DNA from: an uncultured Pelagibacteraceae bacterium
GTDB taxonomy: Bacteria; Pseudomonadota; Alphaproteobacteria; Pelagibacterales; Pelagibacteraceae
DNA: 64,000 bases
Direction: 5' to 3'
Assembly: GCA_902552345.1 (NCBI GenBank)
Contig: CACDGO010000001.1
Location: 186,001 to 250,000, forward strand
Part shown: positions 47,090 to 64,000 of the stretch, piece by piece
Position numbering within the stretch: the first letter of the stretch is position 1
Layout of the letters: each line of letters opens with the position of its first letter
Made by a program: the position numbers and the translations under genes
The notes under the pieces: generated by a model
The model's database searches: none
What the model was told of the DNA's origin: nothing
The model's input: only the letters and a program-made list of their open reading frames with translations

Positions 47090-47554
47090 ATGATGTTTTT
47101 ATCAAGTTACGAAAACAAAATAGACAAGAAAGGTCGAGTTTCAGTGCCAGCAGCATTTAGATCTAACTTGAACTCTATGGGTTATAACGGTTTTGTTACT
47201 TATCCATCATTTAATCACCCTGCTCTTGAAGCCTGCTCCCAAGAAAGAGTAGAACAATTATCAAATACTATTGACTCTCTCAATCCATTTGAGGAAAAAA
47301 GAGATTATTTTGCAACATCAGTTTTGTCAGAAAGTGAAAATTTACAATTTGACACTGAAGGCAGAGTTTCTATTTCAGAAAAACTATTAAAACATGCAAA
47401 AATTAAAAATAATGTTTTATTTGTTGGGTTAGGTAAAACTTTTCAAATTTGGGAACCTAAAAATTTTGAAAAATTTAAAGCTTTTGCTAGAAAAAAAGCT
47501 TTTCAAAATAGATCAAATTTAAAATGGGAAAACAATCAGAAAGGAGAAAAGTGA
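47090..47554 (+). CDS. mraZ: Transcriptional regulator MraZ
   Basis: 154 aa. Two AbrB-like MraZ repeats, each with the D-x3-R motif: DKKGRVSVPAAFR (about 12-24) and DTEGRVSISEKLL (about 88-100). MraZ represses its own dcw operon by binding TGGG repeats upstream; those repeats are present. Start ATG at 47090, or 47093 which gives MFLSSYEN, the more typical start; AAAGGA precedes both. Its stop overlaps the ftsZ ATG (TGATG). Confidence 0.95.
   Translation: MMFLSSYENKIDKKGRVSVPAAFRSNLNSMGYNGFVTYPSFNHPALEACSQERVEQLSNTIDSLNPFEEKRDYFATSVLSESENLQFDTEGRVSISEKLLKHAKIKNNVLFVGLGKTFQIWEPKNFEKFKAFARKKAFQNRSNLKWENNQKGEK
47541..47546 (+). promoter_or_regulatory. Strong Shine-Dalgarno AAGGAG of ftsZ
   Basis: AAGGAG sits 7 nt before the ATG at 47554, inside the 3' end of mraZ. 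It fixes the ftsZ start at that ATG instead of the upstream ATG at 47524 used by the ORF track, and suggests efficient re-initiation after mraZ. Confidence 0.75.
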
Positions 47555-49050
47555 TGAGTATAAATGTTGGAGGCGGAGAATTGAGAGAATTAAAACCAAG
47601 GATTTTGGTAATTGGTGTGGGAGGTGCTGGTGGCAATGCTATAAACGCTATGATCGAGGCCGGCATGCAAGGTGTAGAGTTTGTTGCAGTCAACACAGAT
47701 GCCCAGGATTTAAAAATGAGTAAAGCAGATGCAAAAATACAAATAGGTATGAATTTAACTAAAGGACTTGGTGCTGGAGCTAAGAATGACATTGGTCAAG
47801 CAGCAGCGGATGAGTCTATAAATGAAATAGTAAACTATATTCAGGGAAGCAACATGGTATTTATTGCATCAGGAATGGGTGGTGGAACTGGTACAGGAGC
47901 CTCTCATGTCATTGCAAAGGCTGCAAGAGAAATGAATATTCTAACTGTAGGTGTAACTACACTACCGTTTTCTTATGAAGGGCCGAAGAGAATGAGGAGA
48001 GCAGTAACCGGACTTGAAGAATTAAAAAAATACTTAGACACTACTATTGTAGTTCCAAATCAAAATCTTTTTAAAATTGCAAATGAACTAACAGGTTTTG
48101 AAGAGTCTTTTAGTCTATCTAACGATGTGCTTAAACATGGTGTTCAAAGTATTACTGACCTGATGGTAAGACCTGGCATGATAAATTTAGATTTTGCAGA
48201 CGTTGAAACGGTCATGAGTTCTAGTGGAAAAGCAATGATGGGAACTGGTGAAGCCGAGGGTGATAACAGAGCCATGGCAGCTACAGAATTAGCTCTCAAT
48301 AATCCATTAATTGATGAATACACGTTACAGGGAGCTAAAGGTTTACTTGTAAATATTACAGGAGCAAGTGATATTAAACTTTTCGAAGTTGATGCTGCTG
48401 TAAATAAAATAAGAGCCGAAGTTGATCCGGAAGCAGAACTTATATTTGGAGCTATAAAAGATGAAAATATGAATGGAAAAATTCGTGTTTCAATTGTTGC
48501 AACTTCTCTGAAAGGATCATCAATTTCTCCCGAATCTAAACCAGTTTTCAACGTTGTCAATGGGTCTAATGATAAACAAACTTACTTATCAGATCATCTT
48601 TTTTCAAAAAGTAATTTTGAGCAAAACGTGGTTAATTCTATAGACGGTGCAACTGCGTTAAAATTAGATGAAAGTTATGCGATAAAAAATAATGATGAAC
48701 AAAATGCTCTGATAGAACGTTATGAAAATGAAGAGGAAAGACAGTTGTCCGATAATGTATCTTTATCTAGTCATAAAGATGAAATTCCGACTGGAGTATC
48801 TATTGAAAGTGCATCTTATATAGAAAACAATAAAGAATCAAAGACTGATGATTATACACAAGATGAAATTTTAAGTGGTAACTCAGAGGAAGAATACACT
48901 CCTAAACTTTTTTCTGAGGATCAAAATCATGAAGATGAAATTTCTAAAATTAAAGATGAGAGAAACGAAACAGATCGTTTATTTGATCAAGATACAAACG
49001 AGGATGAAGATTTTGAAATTCCTGCATTTTTAAGAAGACAAAAGTTTTAA
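47554..49050 (+). CDS. ftsZ: Cell division GTPase FtsZ
   Basis: 498 aa from ATG 47554. It is the tubulin homologue that builds the Z-ring. The tubulin signature GMGGGTGTGAS begins at residue 107; GVGGAGGNAI (about 21), GPKRMRRAVTG and the T7 synergy loop NLDFADVETVM follow. A long acidic linker (about 330-480) ends in the conserved tail EIPAFLRRQ that binds FtsA and other partners. Position is unusual: directly after mraZ (TGATG overlap) and before rsmH, rather than after ftsA. Confidence 0.97.
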   Translation: MSINVGGGELRELKPRILVIGVGGAGGNAINAMIEAGMQGVEFVAVNTDAQDLKMSKADAKIQIGMNLTKGLGAGAKNDIGQAAADESINEIVNYIQGSNMVFIASGMGGGTGTGASHVIAKAAREMNILTVGVTTLPFSYEGPKRMRRAVTGLEELKKYLDTTIVVPNQNLFKIANELTGFEESFSLSNDVLKHGVQSITDLMVRPGMINLDFADVETVMSSSGKAMMGTGEAEGDNRAMAATELALNNPLIDEYTLQGAKGLLVNITGASDIKLFEVDAAVNKIRAEVDPEAELIFGAIKDENMNGKIRVSIVATSLKGSSISPESKPVFNVVNGSNDKQTYLSDHLFSKSNFEQNVVNSIDGATALKLDESYAIKNNDEQNALIERYENEEERQLSDNVSLSSHKDEIPTGVSIESASYIENNKESKTDDYTQDEILSGNSEEEYTPKLFSEDQNHEDEISKIKDERNETDRLFDQDTNEDEDFEIPAFLRRQKF

Positions 49051-50410: not shown

Positions 50411-52112
50411 AAATCTTGATATAAATCAAACTAGTTTTTATTTTGAAGATTATTTAGAGACAAATAAAAAAAATAAATCTCTACATAAAAATAAGTTATT
50501 CCAGGACAGAATATATCTACTATTTTTTTTATTTTTTTCACTCATTTTTATATTTAGTATAAGAATAATTCATGTCTCTTTAAACAAAATTCAAATTTTT
50601 AGTCATGAAAGTATATCAAAAAAAAATAATCTACTTAGGAGAGATATTGTTGATCGACATGGAGAATTAATTTCACGAAATATAAAATCATTTCATGCTG
50701 CAATTAATCCTAAGTACATAAAAAACAAAAATAATTTTTTATTAAAATTAAGAATTAATTTTCCAGATCTTCCATTCAGAAAAATTGAAAACAATTTAAA
50801 TAAAGGAAAATATTTTTATCTAAAGAAACGAATTACTCAATTTGAGAAAGAAAAGTTATGGGCTTTAGGTGAAAAAGGTATTATTTTTGAACCATTCCAA
50901 ACTAGAGTATATACACACTCAAATTTGTATAGTCATATTATTGGTCAAGTTGATTATGATAATTATGGCATTTCAGGAATAGAAAAATATCTTGACAAAG
51001 AGCTTCGAGATAAAAATTTGACTAATTTCCCAATAGTTTTAACTTTAGATACAAATATTCAACACCTGATTAACCAAGAACTTAATAAAGCTCTTTTAAC
51101 TTTTAAAGCAACCGGCGGCGCATCGCTTTTAATGGATGTAAATAATGGAGACATCTTATCTTTAGTATCCCTGCCAAATTATGACATAAATTTAAGATCT
51201 GATGTAAAAGATATTAAGTATATGAATAAGATTTCGAAAGGTGTTTACGAGTTAGGCTCAATTTTTAAAACATTCACCGTCGCTTTAGCTCTGGACAATG
51301 ATATTGTTACACCTAAGACAATAATAAAAAATTTACCTCAATCTGTAAGTTGTTCAAAATATGAAATTTCAGATATTAAAAATTTTCCAAAGAATTTGTC
51401 AGTCGAGGATATTTTGGTTAGGTCCTCAAATATTGGAACATTGCTTATTGCAAGAAAAATTGGAGAGGAAAAATATAAAAAGTTTATCAATGATGCCAAA
51501 TTACTTAAAAGTCCTGAAATTCAGTTAGAGGAAGTGGGAAATCCAATAAATTTTGATTGGAACAGATGTAAATTAGAAACTGTTTCATATGGACATGGTA
51601 TTACTACAACACCATTGCAGGCCGCAACAGTTTATGCATCCTTAACTAATGGTGGAAAATTAATTAGACCAAACCTAATTAAAGGCAAAAATGAGCTAAA
51701 TTTTGAAAGAATAGTTTCTAAAAAAACTAGTAAACAAATTAATGATATTTTAAGAAAAGTAGTTACTGAAGAAGAAGGAACCGCTAGTTTAGCCGATGTT
51801 TTCGGTTATAATGTTGGAGGAAAAACAGGAACTTCTGAAAACTATCATAATAAAAAAGAAAATTTGAATACTTTTATATCTGTTTTTCCATCACAAAACC
51901 CTAAATATGTTTTGTTAGTAATGCTTGAAAATCCACAAGTTGCAGAAGATTTAATCTATGATTATAGAGGGTTGAAAATAAAAGCCTCTAGGAATGAGGC
52001 TGGATGGAATTCAGTCTATGTATCAGGCAAAATAATAAAAAAAATTGGACCAATTTTAGCCATAAAAGATAAAGATTTTAATAGTCAATATGTTGCTGAA
52101 AAAGTTAATTAA
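50385..52112 (+). CDS. ftsI: Septal peptidoglycan transpeptidase FtsI (PBP3)
   Basis: 575 aa from the ATG at 50385; the track's start at 50349 would deepen the ftsL overlap to 62 bp without adding conserved sequence. One N-terminal membrane helix, a PBP dimerisation domain, then the transpeptidase with the SxxK active Ser (GSIFKTFT), SxN (RSSNIGT) and KTGT (GGKTGTSE). It cross-links septal wall and partners with FtsW. It overlaps the murE/F gene by 23 bp. Confidence 0.95.
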   Translation: MRKKQKKIKNLDINQTSFYFEDYLETNKKNKSLHKNKLFQDRIYLLFFLFFSLIFIFSIRIIHVSLNKIQIFSHESISKKNNLLRRDIVDRHGELISRNIKSFHAAINPKYIKNKNNFLLKLRINFPDLPFRKIENNLNKGKYFYLKKRITQFEKEKLWALGEKGIIFEPFQTRVYTHSNLYSHIIGQVDYDNYGISGIEKYLDKELRDKNLTNFPIVLTLDTNIQHLINQELNKALLTFKATGGASLLMDVNNGDILSLVSLPNYDINLRSDVKDIKYMNKISKGVYELGSIFKTFTVALALDNDIVTPKTIIKNLPQSVSCSKYEISDIKNFPKNLSVEDILVRSSNIGTLLIARKIGEEKYKKFINDAKLLKSPEIQLEEVGNPINFDWNRCKLETVSYGHGITTTPLQAATVYASLTNGGKLIRPNLIKGKNELNFERIVSKKTSKQINDILRKVVTEEEGTASLADVFGYNVGGKTGTSENYHNKKENLNTFISVFPSQNPKYVLLVMLENPQVAEDLIYDYRGLKIKASRNEAGWNSVYVSGKIIKKIGPILAIKDKDFNSQYVAEKVN

Positions 52113-54867
52113 AAATATTCCATTAGATAAAAAAAAAATTAAAATAAATGGTTTAGCAATTAATAGTAAAAAAGTTCAAAAAGGATATATTTTTTTTGCA
52201 ATAAAAGGCCATAATAATAATGGTGAAAAATTTATTAAAGAAGCAATTAAAAAAGGGGCCTCTGTAATAGTATGTTCAAAAAGTTGTAAATATTTTAATA
52301 AAAGTATTGTCACAATTAAGACATCTAATGTAAGATATTTGTTAAGTGAAATATCATCAAAATTTTTTAATTTAAAACCTAAAAATATAATAGCTGTGAC
52401 TGGAACTAATGGCAAAACTTCAGTAGCAGATTTATTTTATCAAATTTTGTTGATAAACAAGGTACCTGTAGCATCAATCGGTACCCTTGGAATTAAGTTT
52501 AAAAAAAAAATAATTAAATCTAATTTAACTTCACCTGACACGATTTTTCTTCATCAAACTCTTGAAAAAATAAAAAAAGAGGGTATCGATAACGTCATCA
52601 TCGAAACTTCTAGCCATGGATTAATCCAACATAGAATTGATCATATAAATTTTAATGCAGGTATTTTCACTAATCTCAGCCAAGATCATTTAGATTATCA
52701 CAAATCAATGCGTTCCTACCTTAAGGCAAAAATGATTTTATTTAACAAAATAATAACAAAAAAAAAGATAATAATAACTGACAAAACACTGAAACAGTAT
52801 GAGCTTTTAAAAAGGATTTCTGAAAAAAGACAATTACAACTAGTCGATATTAGTTTAATTGAAAAAAAATTAATTAAGAATAAGAATATTAAATTTAAAA
52901 ATTTCCAAATAAAGAACCTTTCTATGGCTATTGCAGCTGCAAAGTTATGCAATTTAAAAGAAAAAAAAATTTTTCGTTCAATAAATAAAATTAAAGATGT
53001 AGATGGTAGATTAGAACTAGTCAAAATATTTAGCAACAATGTCAGTGTCTATGTTGACTTTGCTCACACACCTGATGCGCTTCTTAAATCTATTACAGCA
53101 CTTAAAGACTCAGATAATAAAGATGTATCAATTATCTTTGGTTGCGGCGGTAATCGTGACTTTAAAAAAAGACCCTTAATGGGAAAAATAGCTAGTCAAA
53201 ATTGTAAAAATATTTACGTAACTGATGACAATCCAAGAGATGAAAAACCTGAGAAGATAAGAAATGAAATTATTAAAGTCATTAAAAATAAAAATTGCTT
53301 TAACATTAAAGATAGATCAATTGCTATTAAGACGGCAATAATTAATGCTGAACCAAATGAAAAAATTTTAATTGCTGGTAAAGGACATGAGAGTCAACAA
53401 ATATATAAAAAAAAAACAATTTCGATTTCAGATAAAAAAATTGTTAGTAATTTTAATTATAAAAATAAAAAATTATCAAATAAACAATTAACTTTTCTAC
53501 AAAATAAAAAGATTTTCAAACAAATAAAAAAAAATACAAAGATAGAAGATTTCCATGGTCTTGCGATTGACTCTAGATTAGTGAAAAAAAATAATTTATT
53601 CTTAACAATTAAAGGTAAAAACCATGACGGATCAAACTTCATCTCTTCTGCACTTGACAAGGGAGCAAAACATATTGTTTCATCGAAGAAATTAAAAAAA
53701 TATAAAAATAAGATCATTAAAGTAAAAAACGAAATAAAATTCTTAAATAGTTTTGCTAAAAAAAAAAGGGATATCTCTCGAGCTAAAATATTTGCTGTTA
53801 CCGGTAGTGCTGGCAAAACTTCTTTAAAGGATTTGATAAAAGGACTATTGCAACACTATGGAGAAACACAAAGTTCCCCTAAATCATACAATAATCACTT
53901 TGGAGTGCCACTTAGTCTGTCAGAATTAAGTGTAGGTCACAAATATGGAGTATTTGAAGTAGGTATGAGCAAACCTGGTGAAATTAATAATTTAAGTAAA
54001 TTAATAAAACCAGATATTGCTATTATAACAAACATTGGAGAGGCTCACATTGAAAATTTCAAAAGCCTTAAGGGTATCGCAGATGCTAAAGGAGAAATCA
54101 TTAATAATGTAAATAAAAATGGAACTATAATTTTAAATAAAGACGATAAATACTTTAATCATTTGAAAAAGAAGGCAAAATTAAAAAATCTAAATATTGT
54201 TTCATTCGGCCTTAGTAAAAAATCTGAAGTTTTCCCAATTAACTTTAACAATAAAAGTAGTAATCTTTATAGAATAAGAGTAAAAGATCAAATTTTAAGT
54301 CTTAAACTAAAGAATCTTAATATATACAATGTCTTATCATCCCTCGCTTTATTGAAAACATTAAATCTTAACTTAAACGAAGTTGTAAATTTTTTAAGCA
54401 ATTATAAATCTGGAGAGGGACGAGGAAGAGTGCACAATGTCAAAAGATACGGAAAATTGTTTAAATTTATCGATGAGAGTTACAATGCCAATCCTCTGTC
54501 TGTAAAAACAGCAATTAATAATTTCAGAAAAATAAAGAAAAAAAATTTTAAAAAATATTTGTTTCTTGGAGATATGCTTGAGCTAGGTAAAAAATCCTAC
54601 TCTCTTCACAAAAGTTTATCAAAAGTTATTAACAATTCTGATATAGACAAAGTCTTTATTAAAGGTGATAAATCTCTCATCACATATAGGAATTTAGATA
54701 AAATTAAGCGTGGAAATATTTTTCAACAGGATGAAGATGTAGATTTTACTTTTAAAAGTATTATAGCTAATAATGATTATTTAATGATTAAAGGATCTAA
54801 TGCAACTGGTTTAAATAATTTAAGCAAAAAAATAATCAAAGGTAATCTAATTAAAAAAAGTAATTAA
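52090..54867 (+). CDS. murE/murF: Bifunctional MurE-MurF: mDAP ligase and D-Ala-D-Ala ligase fusion
   Basis: 925 aa in one uninterrupted frame. Residues about 1-455 are MurE: VTGTNGKTSVADLF (ATP loop), SSHGLIQHRID, YLKAK (carbamylated Lys) and DDNPRDE, the meso-diaminopimelate signature. Residues about 465-925 are MurF: FHGLAIDSRLVKKNNLF, AVTGSAGKTSLKDL, the NHFGVPLSL motif and ADAKGEI. The two catalyse successive additions of mDAP and D-Ala-D-Ala to the UDP-MurNAc peptide. No stop, start or frameshift is visible at the junction. Confidence 0.95.
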   Translation: MLLKKLIKNIPLDKKKIKINGLAINSKKVQKGYIFFAIKGHNNNGEKFIKEAIKKGASVIVCSKSCKYFNKSIVTIKTSNVRYLLSEISSKFFNLKPKNIIAVTGTNGKTSVADLFYQILLINKVPVASIGTLGIKFKKKIIKSNLTSPDTIFLHQTLEKIKKEGIDNVIIETSSHGLIQHRIDHINFNAGIFTNLSQDHLDYHKSMRSYLKAKMILFNKIITKKKIIITDKTLKQYELLKRISEKRQLQLVDISLIEKKLIKNKNIKFKNFQIKNLSMAIAAAKLCNLKEKKIFRSINKIKDVDGRLELVKIFSNNVSVYVDFAHTPDALLKSITALKDSDNKDVSIIFGCGGNRDFKKRPLMGKIASQNCKNIYVTDDNPRDEKPEKIRNEIIKVIKNKNCFNIKDRSIAIKTAIINAEPNEKILIAGKGHESQQIYKKKTISISDKKIVSNFNYKNKKLSNKQLTFLQNKKIFKQIKKNTKIEDFHGLAIDSRLVKKNNLFLTIKGKNHDGSNFISSALDKGAKHIVSSKKLKKYKNKIIKVKNEIKFLNSFAKKKRDISRAKIFAVTGSAGKTSLKDLIKGLLQHYGETQSSPKSYNNHFGVPLSLSELSVGHKYGVFEVGMSKPGEINNLSKLIKPDIAIITNIGEAHIENFKSLKGIADAKGEIINNVNKNGTIILNKDDKYFNHLKKKAKLKNLNIVSFGLSKKSEVFPINFNNKSSNLYRIRVKDQILSLKLKNLNIYNVLSSLALLKTLNLNLNEVVNFLSNYKSGEGRGRVHNVKRYGKLFKFIDESYNANPLSVKTAINNFRKIKKKNFKKYLFLGDMLELGKKSYSLHKSLSKVINNSDIDKVFIKGDKSLITYRNLDKIKRGNIFQQDEDVDFTFKSIIANNDYLMIKGSNATGLNNLSKKIIKGNLIKKSN

Positions 54868-61729: not shown

Positions 61730-62660
61730 AAAAAAATTTAAAAAGGTATTAGTTGTTTTAGGTGGAACTTCTGACGAAAGAAAAATAAGTCTGGAAAGTG
61801 GAAAAGCATGTATTAAAGCTCTAAGAAAAAAAAAGTATAACGTAAAATCTTTTGATCCGAAATTTAAGAACTTCAATTTAATTAATAAAGAAAAAACAGA
61901 TGTTATTTTCAATGCTTTGCATGGAAAAGATGGTGAAGACGGAGTAGCACAGAGTTATTTTGAATATTTGAAAATTCCTTACACACATTCAGGAGTTGTG
62001 AGCTCTTATAATGCTATGAACAAAACAATATCCAAAGAAATTTTTAAAAAAAAAAAAATTTTAACTCCAAAATATTTTGTAATTAAAAAAGAGGAACACA
62101 ATCAAATTTATTTAAGAAAATTATTAATCCAAAAAAAAATTAAATTTCCAGTTGTTATCAAGCCAGTAAATGAAGGTTCTAGTATTGGGATTAAAATTTG
62201 TAAAAATCTTTTCAATCTAAGTAATTCAGCTAAAAAACTTTTTAAAAAATATAATAAACTCATATTTGAGCAGTTTGTAGGAGGTCAAGAAATACAAGTT
62301 GCAATTTTAAATAATCGAATACTAGGAGCTATTGAATTAATACCTAAAAGATCCTTTTATGATTACAAGGCCAAATACACCAAGACAGCTAATACAAAAC
62401 ATATAATGCCCGCGAGGCTTGAGAAAAAAAAATATAAAGAGGTTATGTATATAGCAAATAAAGCACATAAAGCTCTGAGCTGCAGAGGTATAACAAGATC
62501 AGATTTTAAATTTCAAAATAACAAATTTTACCTTTTAGAAATAAATACTCAACCGGGTATGACAAATCTTTCTTTGGCCCCTGAAATAGCTAATTACAGA
62601 GGAATCGATTTTCCTGCACTTGTCGAAAAAATATTATTGGATGCAAGTATCAATAGATGA
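61722..62660 (+). CDS. ddl: D-alanine-D-alanine ligase
   Basis: 312 aa beginning with GTG at 61722. ATP-grasp enzyme joining two D-Ala. VVLGGTSDERKISLESG (about 10-26) binds the first substrate, NALHGKDGEDG is the second family signature, VIKPVNEGSSIGIKI is the ATP-grasp strand, and ITRSDFKF plus EINTQPGMTNLS complete the metal and second D-Ala sites. It overlaps ftsQ by 4 bp. Confidence 0.94.
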   Translation: MSKKKFKKVLVVLGGTSDERKISLESGKACIKALRKKKYNVKSFDPKFKNFNLINKEKTDVIFNALHGKDGEDGVAQSYFEYLKIPYTHSGVVSSYNAMNKTISKEIFKKKKILTPKYFVIKKEEHNQIYLRKLLIQKKIKFPVVIKPVNEGSSIGIKICKNLFNLSNSAKKLFKKYNKLIFEQFVGGQEIQVAILNNRILGAIELIPKRSFYDYKAKYTKTANTKHIMPARLEKKKYKEVMYIANKAHKALSCRGITRSDFKFQNNKFYLLEINTQPGMTNLSLAPEIANYRGIDFPALVEKILLDASINR

Positions 62661-63310
62661 ATAAACGACTTTTCATCGCCTTAACCCTAATATTACTTTT
62701 AACTACGTATAAATTAGGAAATGAAATAAATCTAAATTTAGGAGTAAAAAAAATAATTATAGAGAATAATAATATTTTGAGCGAAAAACAAGTAAAAGAA
62801 GATCTTCTTTTTCTCTATGAAAAAAATTTGTTTTTTTTAAATAACAATTTAATAAAAAAACAAATAGATAAAAATAGCTTAATCGAAAGTTTCAAAATAA
62901 AAAAAATTTATCCTAATACCGTAAAAATTCAAGTATTTGAAAAAGAACCAGTTTTTATTTTACAAAATAAAAAAAAAAGATATTACTTCACAAAAAAAAA
63001 CTTATTAATAAATTATACTAATATTAAAAAATTTGAGGATTTGCCTATTGTTTTTGCTGAAAAAGAGAATTTTGAAAAATTTTATAGTGAGCTAAAAAAA
63101 ATTAAATTTCCAATTAAAATAGTAAAGGCTTTTTATTTCTTTGACTCAAAAAGATGGGACTTGTTAACAGTCAATAATAAAACGATAAAACTACCAATTA
63201 AAGATTATGATATAAGCTTAAAAAATTTTATAAATATTCAAAAAAAAGAAAGTTTTAAAAAATATACAATTTTTGATTATAGAATTACAGATCAACTTAT
63301 TTTAAAATGA
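62657..63310 (+). CDS. ftsQ: FtsQ-like division protein
   Basis: 217 aa. A single N-terminal membrane helix (LFIALTLILLLTTYKL) is followed by a POTRA-like segment (IIIENNNILSEKQVKEDLLF, quoted in part) and the FtsQ beta domain (IKKIYPNTVKIQVFEKEPVFIL). FtsQ bridges cytoplasmic and periplasmic divisome parts. Position between ddl and ftsA supports the call. Slightly short, but within family range. Confidence 0.88.
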   Translation: MNKRLFIALTLILLLTTYKLGNEINLNLGVKKIIIENNNILSEKQVKEDLLFLYEKNLFFLNNNLIKKQIDKNSLIESFKIKKIYPNTVKIQVFEKEPVFILQNKKKRYYFTKKNLLINYTNIKKFEDLPIVFAEKENFEKFYSELKKIKFPIKIVKAFYFFDSKRWDLLTVNNKTIKLPIKDYDISLKNFINIQKKESFKKYTIFDYRITDQLILK

Positions 63311-63313
63311 TTA

Positions 63314-64000
63314 ATGAAAATAAATTCACCAAAACTTGTTATTGAGATAAATAAATTTGAAATATATATTGCAGTTATCGACGAGACTCTAGAAAATAAA
63401 TTTGATTTAATTTATTCACATAAAACCCCAATTATTGATAATCAGAATAAGATAATTAATTTCGAAACTATTTATAATAATTTAAAAAAAAATTTATTTT
63501 TAGCTGAACAAAAACTAAATTTTATTTTTAAAGAATCCGTGGTTATTATCGACTCTTTTGAAGACTCGCTTATAAATTTTAGTAGTTTTAAAAAGTTAAA
63601 TGGGTCACAGTTAACTAAACAAAACATTACTTATATGATAAATTCCCTTAGATCAAAAATTGATGAAATTGAGATTAACAAGAAAGTAATTCATATTTTT
63701 AACTCTAATTATATTTTAGATAAAAAAAGAACAAATAATTTACCAATTGGTCTTTTTGGAAATTTTTATTCTCAAGAATTAAATTTTATGCTGATAAATT
63801 TAAATTATTATGAAAATTTAGTAAAAATTTTTAAAAAATGTAATCTAAGAATTAAAAAGATTATCTCAAAAAGTTTTGCTGAAGGTGTATATTTGATAAA
63901 TGAAAATTCAAATTTAGATACTTTTTGTCGAGTAGAATTAAATGAAAATTGCTCAAAAATATTTTTTTTTGAGAATTTTTCTCCTAAATTTATTCAGGAA
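63314..64000 (+). CDS. ftsA: FtsA-like division protein with degenerate nucleotide-binding motifs (cut by window end)
   Basis: 229 codons are visible, open to the window end, so absent from the ORF track. ATG at 63314 is 3 bp after ftsQ. The pattern LPIGLFGNFYSQELNFMLI and the following NLRIKKIISKSFAEGVYLI align with FtsA (NPVGLSG..., LKVDQLIFAGLASSYSVL in E. coli). Where FtsA has DIGT (phosphate 1) this protein has EINKFEIYI, and where it has DIGGGTMD (phosphate 2) it has ELNENCSKI. The actin-type ATP site therefore looks eroded. Identity rests on position and weak similarity. Confidence 0.68.
   Translation, partial: MKINSPKLVIEINKFEIYIAVIDETLENKFDLIYSHKTPIIDNQNKIINFETIYNNLKKNLFLAEQKLNFIFKESVVIIDSFEDSLINFSSFKKLNGSQLTKQNITYMINSLRSKIDEIEINKKVIHIFNSNYILDKKRTNNLPIGLFGNFYSQELNFMLINLNYYENLVKIFKKCNLRIKKIISKSFAEGVYLINENSNLDTFCRVELNENCSKIFFFENFSPKFIQE

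Follow-up and report, generated by a model that had tools for sequence, protein, structure and literature searches.

The window, by which we mean the whole stretch of 64,000 nucleotides analysed here, ends inside ftsA. The 5' part of the gene (63314..64000, + strand; residues 1-229 of 397) was assigned from its open reading frame and a match to NCBIfam TIGR01174, and the frame continues in the assembly to G000:C1:250507, giving a full-length product of 397 AA residues (G000:C1:249314-250507). Directly upstream lies ftsQ (62657..63310, + strand; POTRA_1, E 7e-13), and the gene order of the assembly, murB-ddl-ftsQ-ftsA-lpxC-bamD, places ftsA between ftsQ and lpxC in the ddl-ftsQ-ftsA neighbourhood typical of this gene. 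ftsZ (47524..49050, + strand; TIGR00065, E 1.6e-112) is situated between mraZ and a mraW-like gene; its listed start overlaps mraZ, and the true start may be downstream. The C-terminal peptide of FtsZ, EIPAFLRRQKF (49015..49047, + strand), corresponding to the FtsA-binding tail, is intact in the sequence. Between ftsI and mraY, a single ORF of 925 AA residues (window 52090-54867) reads like a MurE-MurF fusion.

The ftsA product matches TIGR01174 with an E-value of 2.1e-21 and 76 bits, under the curated cut-off of 176 bits, and Pfam returned SHS2_FTSA alone, the FtsA-specific 1C insert (E 7e-4, likewise under its cut-off). A profile of 78 orthologues matched the solved structure of E. coli FtsA (7q6d, E 3e-17), colinear over 308 residues (8 to 315). 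Structural modelling (AlphaFold, AF2) was carried out on a same-genus orthologue approximately 55% identical to the window protein. The resulting model (pLDDT 82.8, pTM 0.79) displays an actin-type fold whose 1C domain is placed as in FtsA, and a Foldseek search against the PDB gave FtsA structures as its best 19 matches (3wt0, 6e-22), with PilM next and MreB lower in the ranking. The window protein is FtsA by profile, fold and synteny, in agreement with the first-pass annotation. All named relatives found belong to Pelagibacteraceae/SAR11, including HIMB058, presumably a member of SAR11 clade II. The HIMB058 subclade is distant from Ia.3 in a published SAR11 study (PMC7542561).

Loss of the ATP-binding motifs in the window's genus

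Where canonical FtsA carries the phosphate-1 motif D-I/V-G-S/T, the alignment places EINKFEI in the window protein (residues 11-17; 63344..63364, + strand), and the phosphate-2 motif D-I-G-G-G-T is replaced by ELNENCS (residues 208-214; 63935..63955, + strand). To place these sites in context, 79 sequences from the window's genus (g1) were aligned with 19 canonical alphaproteobacterial FtsAs, a small set chosen for canonical-looking motifs, whose 19/19 figures are therefore partly by construction: the phosphate-1 pattern [DE]xG[ST] is present in 0/79 genus sequences vs 19/19, the phosphate-2 Asp in 2/79 vs 19/19, and the adenosine-motif glycine in 0/79 vs 19/19. The phosphate-1 glycine survives in two of the 79, while 71/79 retain E or D at the acidic position of this motif, so that the Gly-Ser/Thr is the part lost; E. 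coli FtsA itself has a glutamate, E14, at the acidic position. The aligned genus sequences show no intact phosphate motif at any other place, and the 79-sequence alignment contains no alternative glycine-rich motif conserved genus-wide. Eighteen columns are invariant over 78 sequences, none of them within the three ATP-motif segments.

The genus orthologues are intact ORFs of 395-400 AA residues (29 loci read, including that of the window), and the 78 sequences from the related-locus search show the same motif loss, so that neither chance nor an error of assembly accounts for it. The replacement of both phosphate motifs noted in the first-pass annotation was thus borne out by the full-length alignment. 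Lacking the actin-type nucleotide motifs that characterise the family, the window protein is described here as an FtsA orthologue that, judged by its residues, has lost the ATPase feature, rather than as an ATP-binding FtsA. A second, normal FtsA in the window genome was considered and rejected, as a search with PF14450 (domain II) recovered MreB alone; in three further genus genomes of 95-98% completeness the same search gave only MreB, DnaK-length frames and weak matches under the cut-off. PF14450 matches FtsA in genomes G065, G066, G068 and G161, and g1 FtsA falls under the cut-off though domain II is physically there.

Features retained by FtsA of the window's genus

In the profile alignment with 7q6d, R296 and E299 of the window FtsA correspond to R300 and E303 of E. 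coli FtsA, and this Arg and Glu of the IIB helix, the predicted FtsZ-tail site, are each invariant in the genus (79/79). E303 of E. coli FtsA lies within the FtsZ-tail binding site and faces R379 of FtsZ (PMC13423804). Domain 1C, with its conserved core FKKLNGSQ ... NLPIGLFG (63587..63760, + strand; SHS2_FTSA, E 7e-4), is the best-conserved large region in the genus (mean conservation 0.76 vs 0.60 overall). The GWKKEAIP linker reaches 0.84 and precedes a C-terminal amphipathic helix, KKSIITRIFDLFFG (residues 384-397), which is helical over residues 387-396 in the orthologue model; both the actin-type fold and the membrane helix therefore remain in the predicted structure. Several of the 18 invariant residues cluster in the 1C domain and the FtsZ-tail helix. 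Pairwise dN/dS values of 0.15 and 0.22 indicate that ftsA of this genus is under purifying selection.

Compared with canonical FtsA (E. coli, Thermotoga and Vibrio; TIGR01174), the window protein has in common the gene position, the 1C fold, the R..E helix for the FtsZ tail, the terminal amphipathic helix and a matching tail peptide on FtsZ, whereas the phosphate-1, phosphate-2 and adenosine motifs are absent and the score of 76 bits stays below the cut-off of 176.

FtsA across SAR11

Genomes of several SAR11 groups, many of them incomplete assemblies, were compared, including the neighbouring large genus g6, which we take to be Pelagibacter (SAR11 clade I), and the groups g5, g7 and g8, presumably SAR11 clade III, alongside those of f2, a family further removed. 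A tree built from four genes (FtsZ, Ddl, LpxC and BamD; a quick method with 36 rows, rooted on a single f2 genome) placed g5/g7/g8 outside the clade of g1+g9 and g6. FtsA of g5/g7/g8 occupies the same operon slot and is accompanied by the same FtsZ tail as in the window genome, but differs in keeping the motifs DIGS, DFGxxKTS and GxGS. Since these deeper branches keep recognisable motifs, the loss of the ATP motifs is derived within SAR11. FtsA of family f2 is intermediate, with the phosphate-1 glycine gone in 15/16 and the phosphate-2 glycine in 16/16 sequences while the adenosine glycines remain. In a class-wide sample, 219/241 genomes scored above the FtsA cut-off, so that an eroded FtsA is not an alphaproteobacterial norm.

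The first-pass annotation had also tied a relocated ftsZ to the remodelling of FtsA. This part was not sustained, as all SAR11 groups checked, including those with a motif-bearing FtsA, have ftsZ some 14-17 kb upstream of ftsA, and the arrangement is ordinary for SAR11. The FtsZ C-terminal tail is likewise intact in every group.

Two side observations concern other lineages. In family f81 (L274 and L294; genomes of 1.3-1.4 Mb), the FtsA-position protein directly upstream of ftsZ has an eroded phosphate-1 motif, possibly an independent erosion in another reduced lineage. In two 0.9-Mb alphaproteobacterial genomes of one family (L273:739-2523 and L276:691-2469), FtsA is apparently fused in-frame to a ribulose-phosphate 3-epimerase-like part, giving products of 592-594 AA residues.

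A mini-FtsA in genus g6

FtsA of one set of g6 genomes has 368-388 AA residues and still readable ATP motifs, and another set carries a mini-FtsA of 220-244 AA residues, or up to 248 in the wider survey below, in the same gene slot (L179-L196, e.g. L183:2057-2758). The gap in the latter, approximately 140-160 residues, opens immediately behind the [CS]SYxKS turn at the end of domain IA and closes immediately ahead of the final IA helix. The missing stretch comprises the whole of domain II (IIA and IIB), and thereby the site for the FtsZ tail and the greater part of the ATP site, while IA, 1C and an amphipathic membrane helix of the GFFEKFFHFF type are retained. Mini-FtsA therefore resembles the window FtsA in its slot, its conserved IA/1C half, its terminal membrane helix and the absence of an ATP site, and differs from it in the excision of domain II, the loss of the FtsZ-tail site and its length. 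Of 299 g6 genomes surveyed, 256 gave a match, and 138 of the best 150 matches listed are complete mini-FtsA ORFs of 220-248 AA residues, corresponding to at least 138 of the 299 genomes; the remaining 12 of the listed matches fall short of this length, and several of these lie at the end of a contig. One single-contig genome (L187, G073) has a frameshifted frame in the mini-FtsA slot, which may be either a sequencing error or a real loss.

Homology to domain I of FtsA was evident from hhalign, in which mini-FtsA aligned to the genus profile at 98.9% over 185 columns (residues 4-193). TIGR01174 matches 8 of 15 members (best 5.9e-13), and the mini-FtsA profile matches residues 53-196 of E. coli FtsA (2e-4). 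dN/dS values range from 0.19 to 0.32. The idea that domain II persists as a separate gene was rejected after a search of five single-contig mini-FtsA genomes. The four-gene tree needs three changes between the mini and long labels, two of which are forced by well-supported branches, and because regain is implausible, domain II has probably been excised at least twice in g6. A parallel loss of the FtsZ tail proved false, as every mini-FtsA genome read has an intact tail; that it persists though mini-FtsA is without the site for it implies another FtsZ anchor.

Discussion

Taken together, it is quite probable that the window FtsA is an orthologue from a branch of SAR11 in which nucleotide binding has been abandoned, and that it acts as an ATP-independent membrane adaptor, the adaptor step being deduced from what the sequences retain. 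In such a protein, the C-terminal amphipathic helix would sit in the membrane, the FtsZ tail would dock on domain IIB and later division proteins on the IA-1C half, all without an ATP-controlled cycle of polymerisation. In studied FtsA, FtsN binds the IA-1C cleft, and 1C provides the lateral contacts of FtsA double filaments whereas IIA/IIB provide the longitudinal ones (PMC7613929). ATP promotes FtsA polymerisation, and active-site substitutions in E. coli FtsA are usually harmful (PMC10213515), so compensating changes must exist in the window protein. An FtsN-like protein as the 1C partner was not found in a SPOR search of 13 SAR11 genomes. The SPOR proteins recovered there (L300-L304) have lipoprotein-type N-termini and an RlpA-like look, and within these genomes FtsN was rejected as the 1C partner. 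Since mini-FtsA keeps only the IA/1C half and the membrane helix, the function on the 1C side is apparently the most persistent, and the last to be given up.

Two other readings leave the protein more of its actin-like character. If the motifs had merely drifted, the window FtsA could still bind ATP or another nucleotide through a rearranged pocket and polymerise under its control; the fold retained in the orthologue model and recovered by Foldseek is compatible with this, and the acidic phosphate-1 residue kept in 71/79 sequences counts against a pure adaptor, as some nucleotide contact may be possible. We nevertheless regard such binding as improbable, given that the phosphate-1 glycine and the phosphate-2 Asp are each present in 2/79 and the adenosine glycine in 0/79, that no alternative glycine-rich motif is conserved genus-wide and that 0/18 invariant columns fall in the motif segments. 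Alternatively, the full-length protein might polymerise constitutively in the absence of ATP, forming a static filament rather than a monomeric adaptor. The modelled actin fold could polymerise without nucleotide, and the window genus, unlike mini-FtsA, keeps domain II and the whole fold in the orthologue model, including the regions whose IIA-IIB longitudinal contacts build FtsA filaments (PMC7613929). However, mini-FtsA is under selection without IIA/IIB, indicating that close relatives have no need of filaments, and polymerisation of studied FtsA is promoted by ATP (PMC10213515), so we consider a static filament unlikely, though deserving of some weight.

That ftsA of the window is a decaying, non-functional gene is very improbable. 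The divergence within the genus is high (31-52% identity) and the genome is AT-rich and reduced, as might be expected during decay, but the ORF of 395-400 AA residues is intact in 29/29 genus loci read, dN/dS of 0.15-0.22 rejects a pseudogene, and 18 residues are invariant over 78 sequences, several of them in 1C or the FtsZ-tail helix. There is hardly any probability left for a different actin-fold adaptor of the PilM type in the ftsA position. PilM, the next Foldseek family after FtsA, has an actin fold with a 1C domain in common with FtsA, and it uses this 1C domain to bind the tail of PilN, its partner in the membrane; to our knowledge, PilM is not known to bind an FtsZ tail. Against this, the match to TIGR01174 is FtsA-specific, the Foldseek values of FtsA structures are several orders of magnitude better than those of PilM, the protein carries FtsA-type FtsZ-tail residues and a terminal amphipathic helix, and in the SAR11 loci read the gene is flanked by ftsQ and lpxC.

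An ATP-independent adaptor remains the preferred reading of the window FtsA. The interpretation in the first-pass annotation stands as to FtsA identity, motif loss, fold and membrane anchor, but not where it ties the relocated ftsZ to these changes; its suggestion of a remodelled divisome gains weight from the mini-FtsA in neighbouring SAR11 and receives none from the position of ftsZ. Extended to the clade, there is about an even chance that the actin-like activity of SAR11 FtsA was dismantled by two routes, point erosion in the window clade and excision of domain II at least twice in g6, leaving a membrane-bound 1C adaptor, with an unrecognised protein anchoring FtsZ where FtsA is without the site. 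Literature on FtsA in SAR11/Pelagibacter and, among the papers listed, on FtsZ in SAR11, covered mainly as titles and abstracts and excluding subscription journals and preprints, yielded nothing on FtsA motif loss or mini-FtsA.

The usual picture of FtsA is that of an actin homologue dependent on ATP, which controls division by polymerising and by tethering FtsZ. In the lineages described here, which belong to a bacterial group that ranks among the most numerous in the ocean, this ATP-driven, actin-like form is apparently dispensable. In natural evolution the window's genus has apparently shed the ATP site, and g6 the entire half of FtsA responsible for FtsZ binding and polymerisation, while selection still maintains the 1C half together with the membrane helix. 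The SAR11 variants thereby separate the functions of FtsA from one another and make two questions directly testable: whether polymerisation of FtsA is needed for division at all, and which anchor serves FtsZ in cells whose FtsA is unable to hold it.
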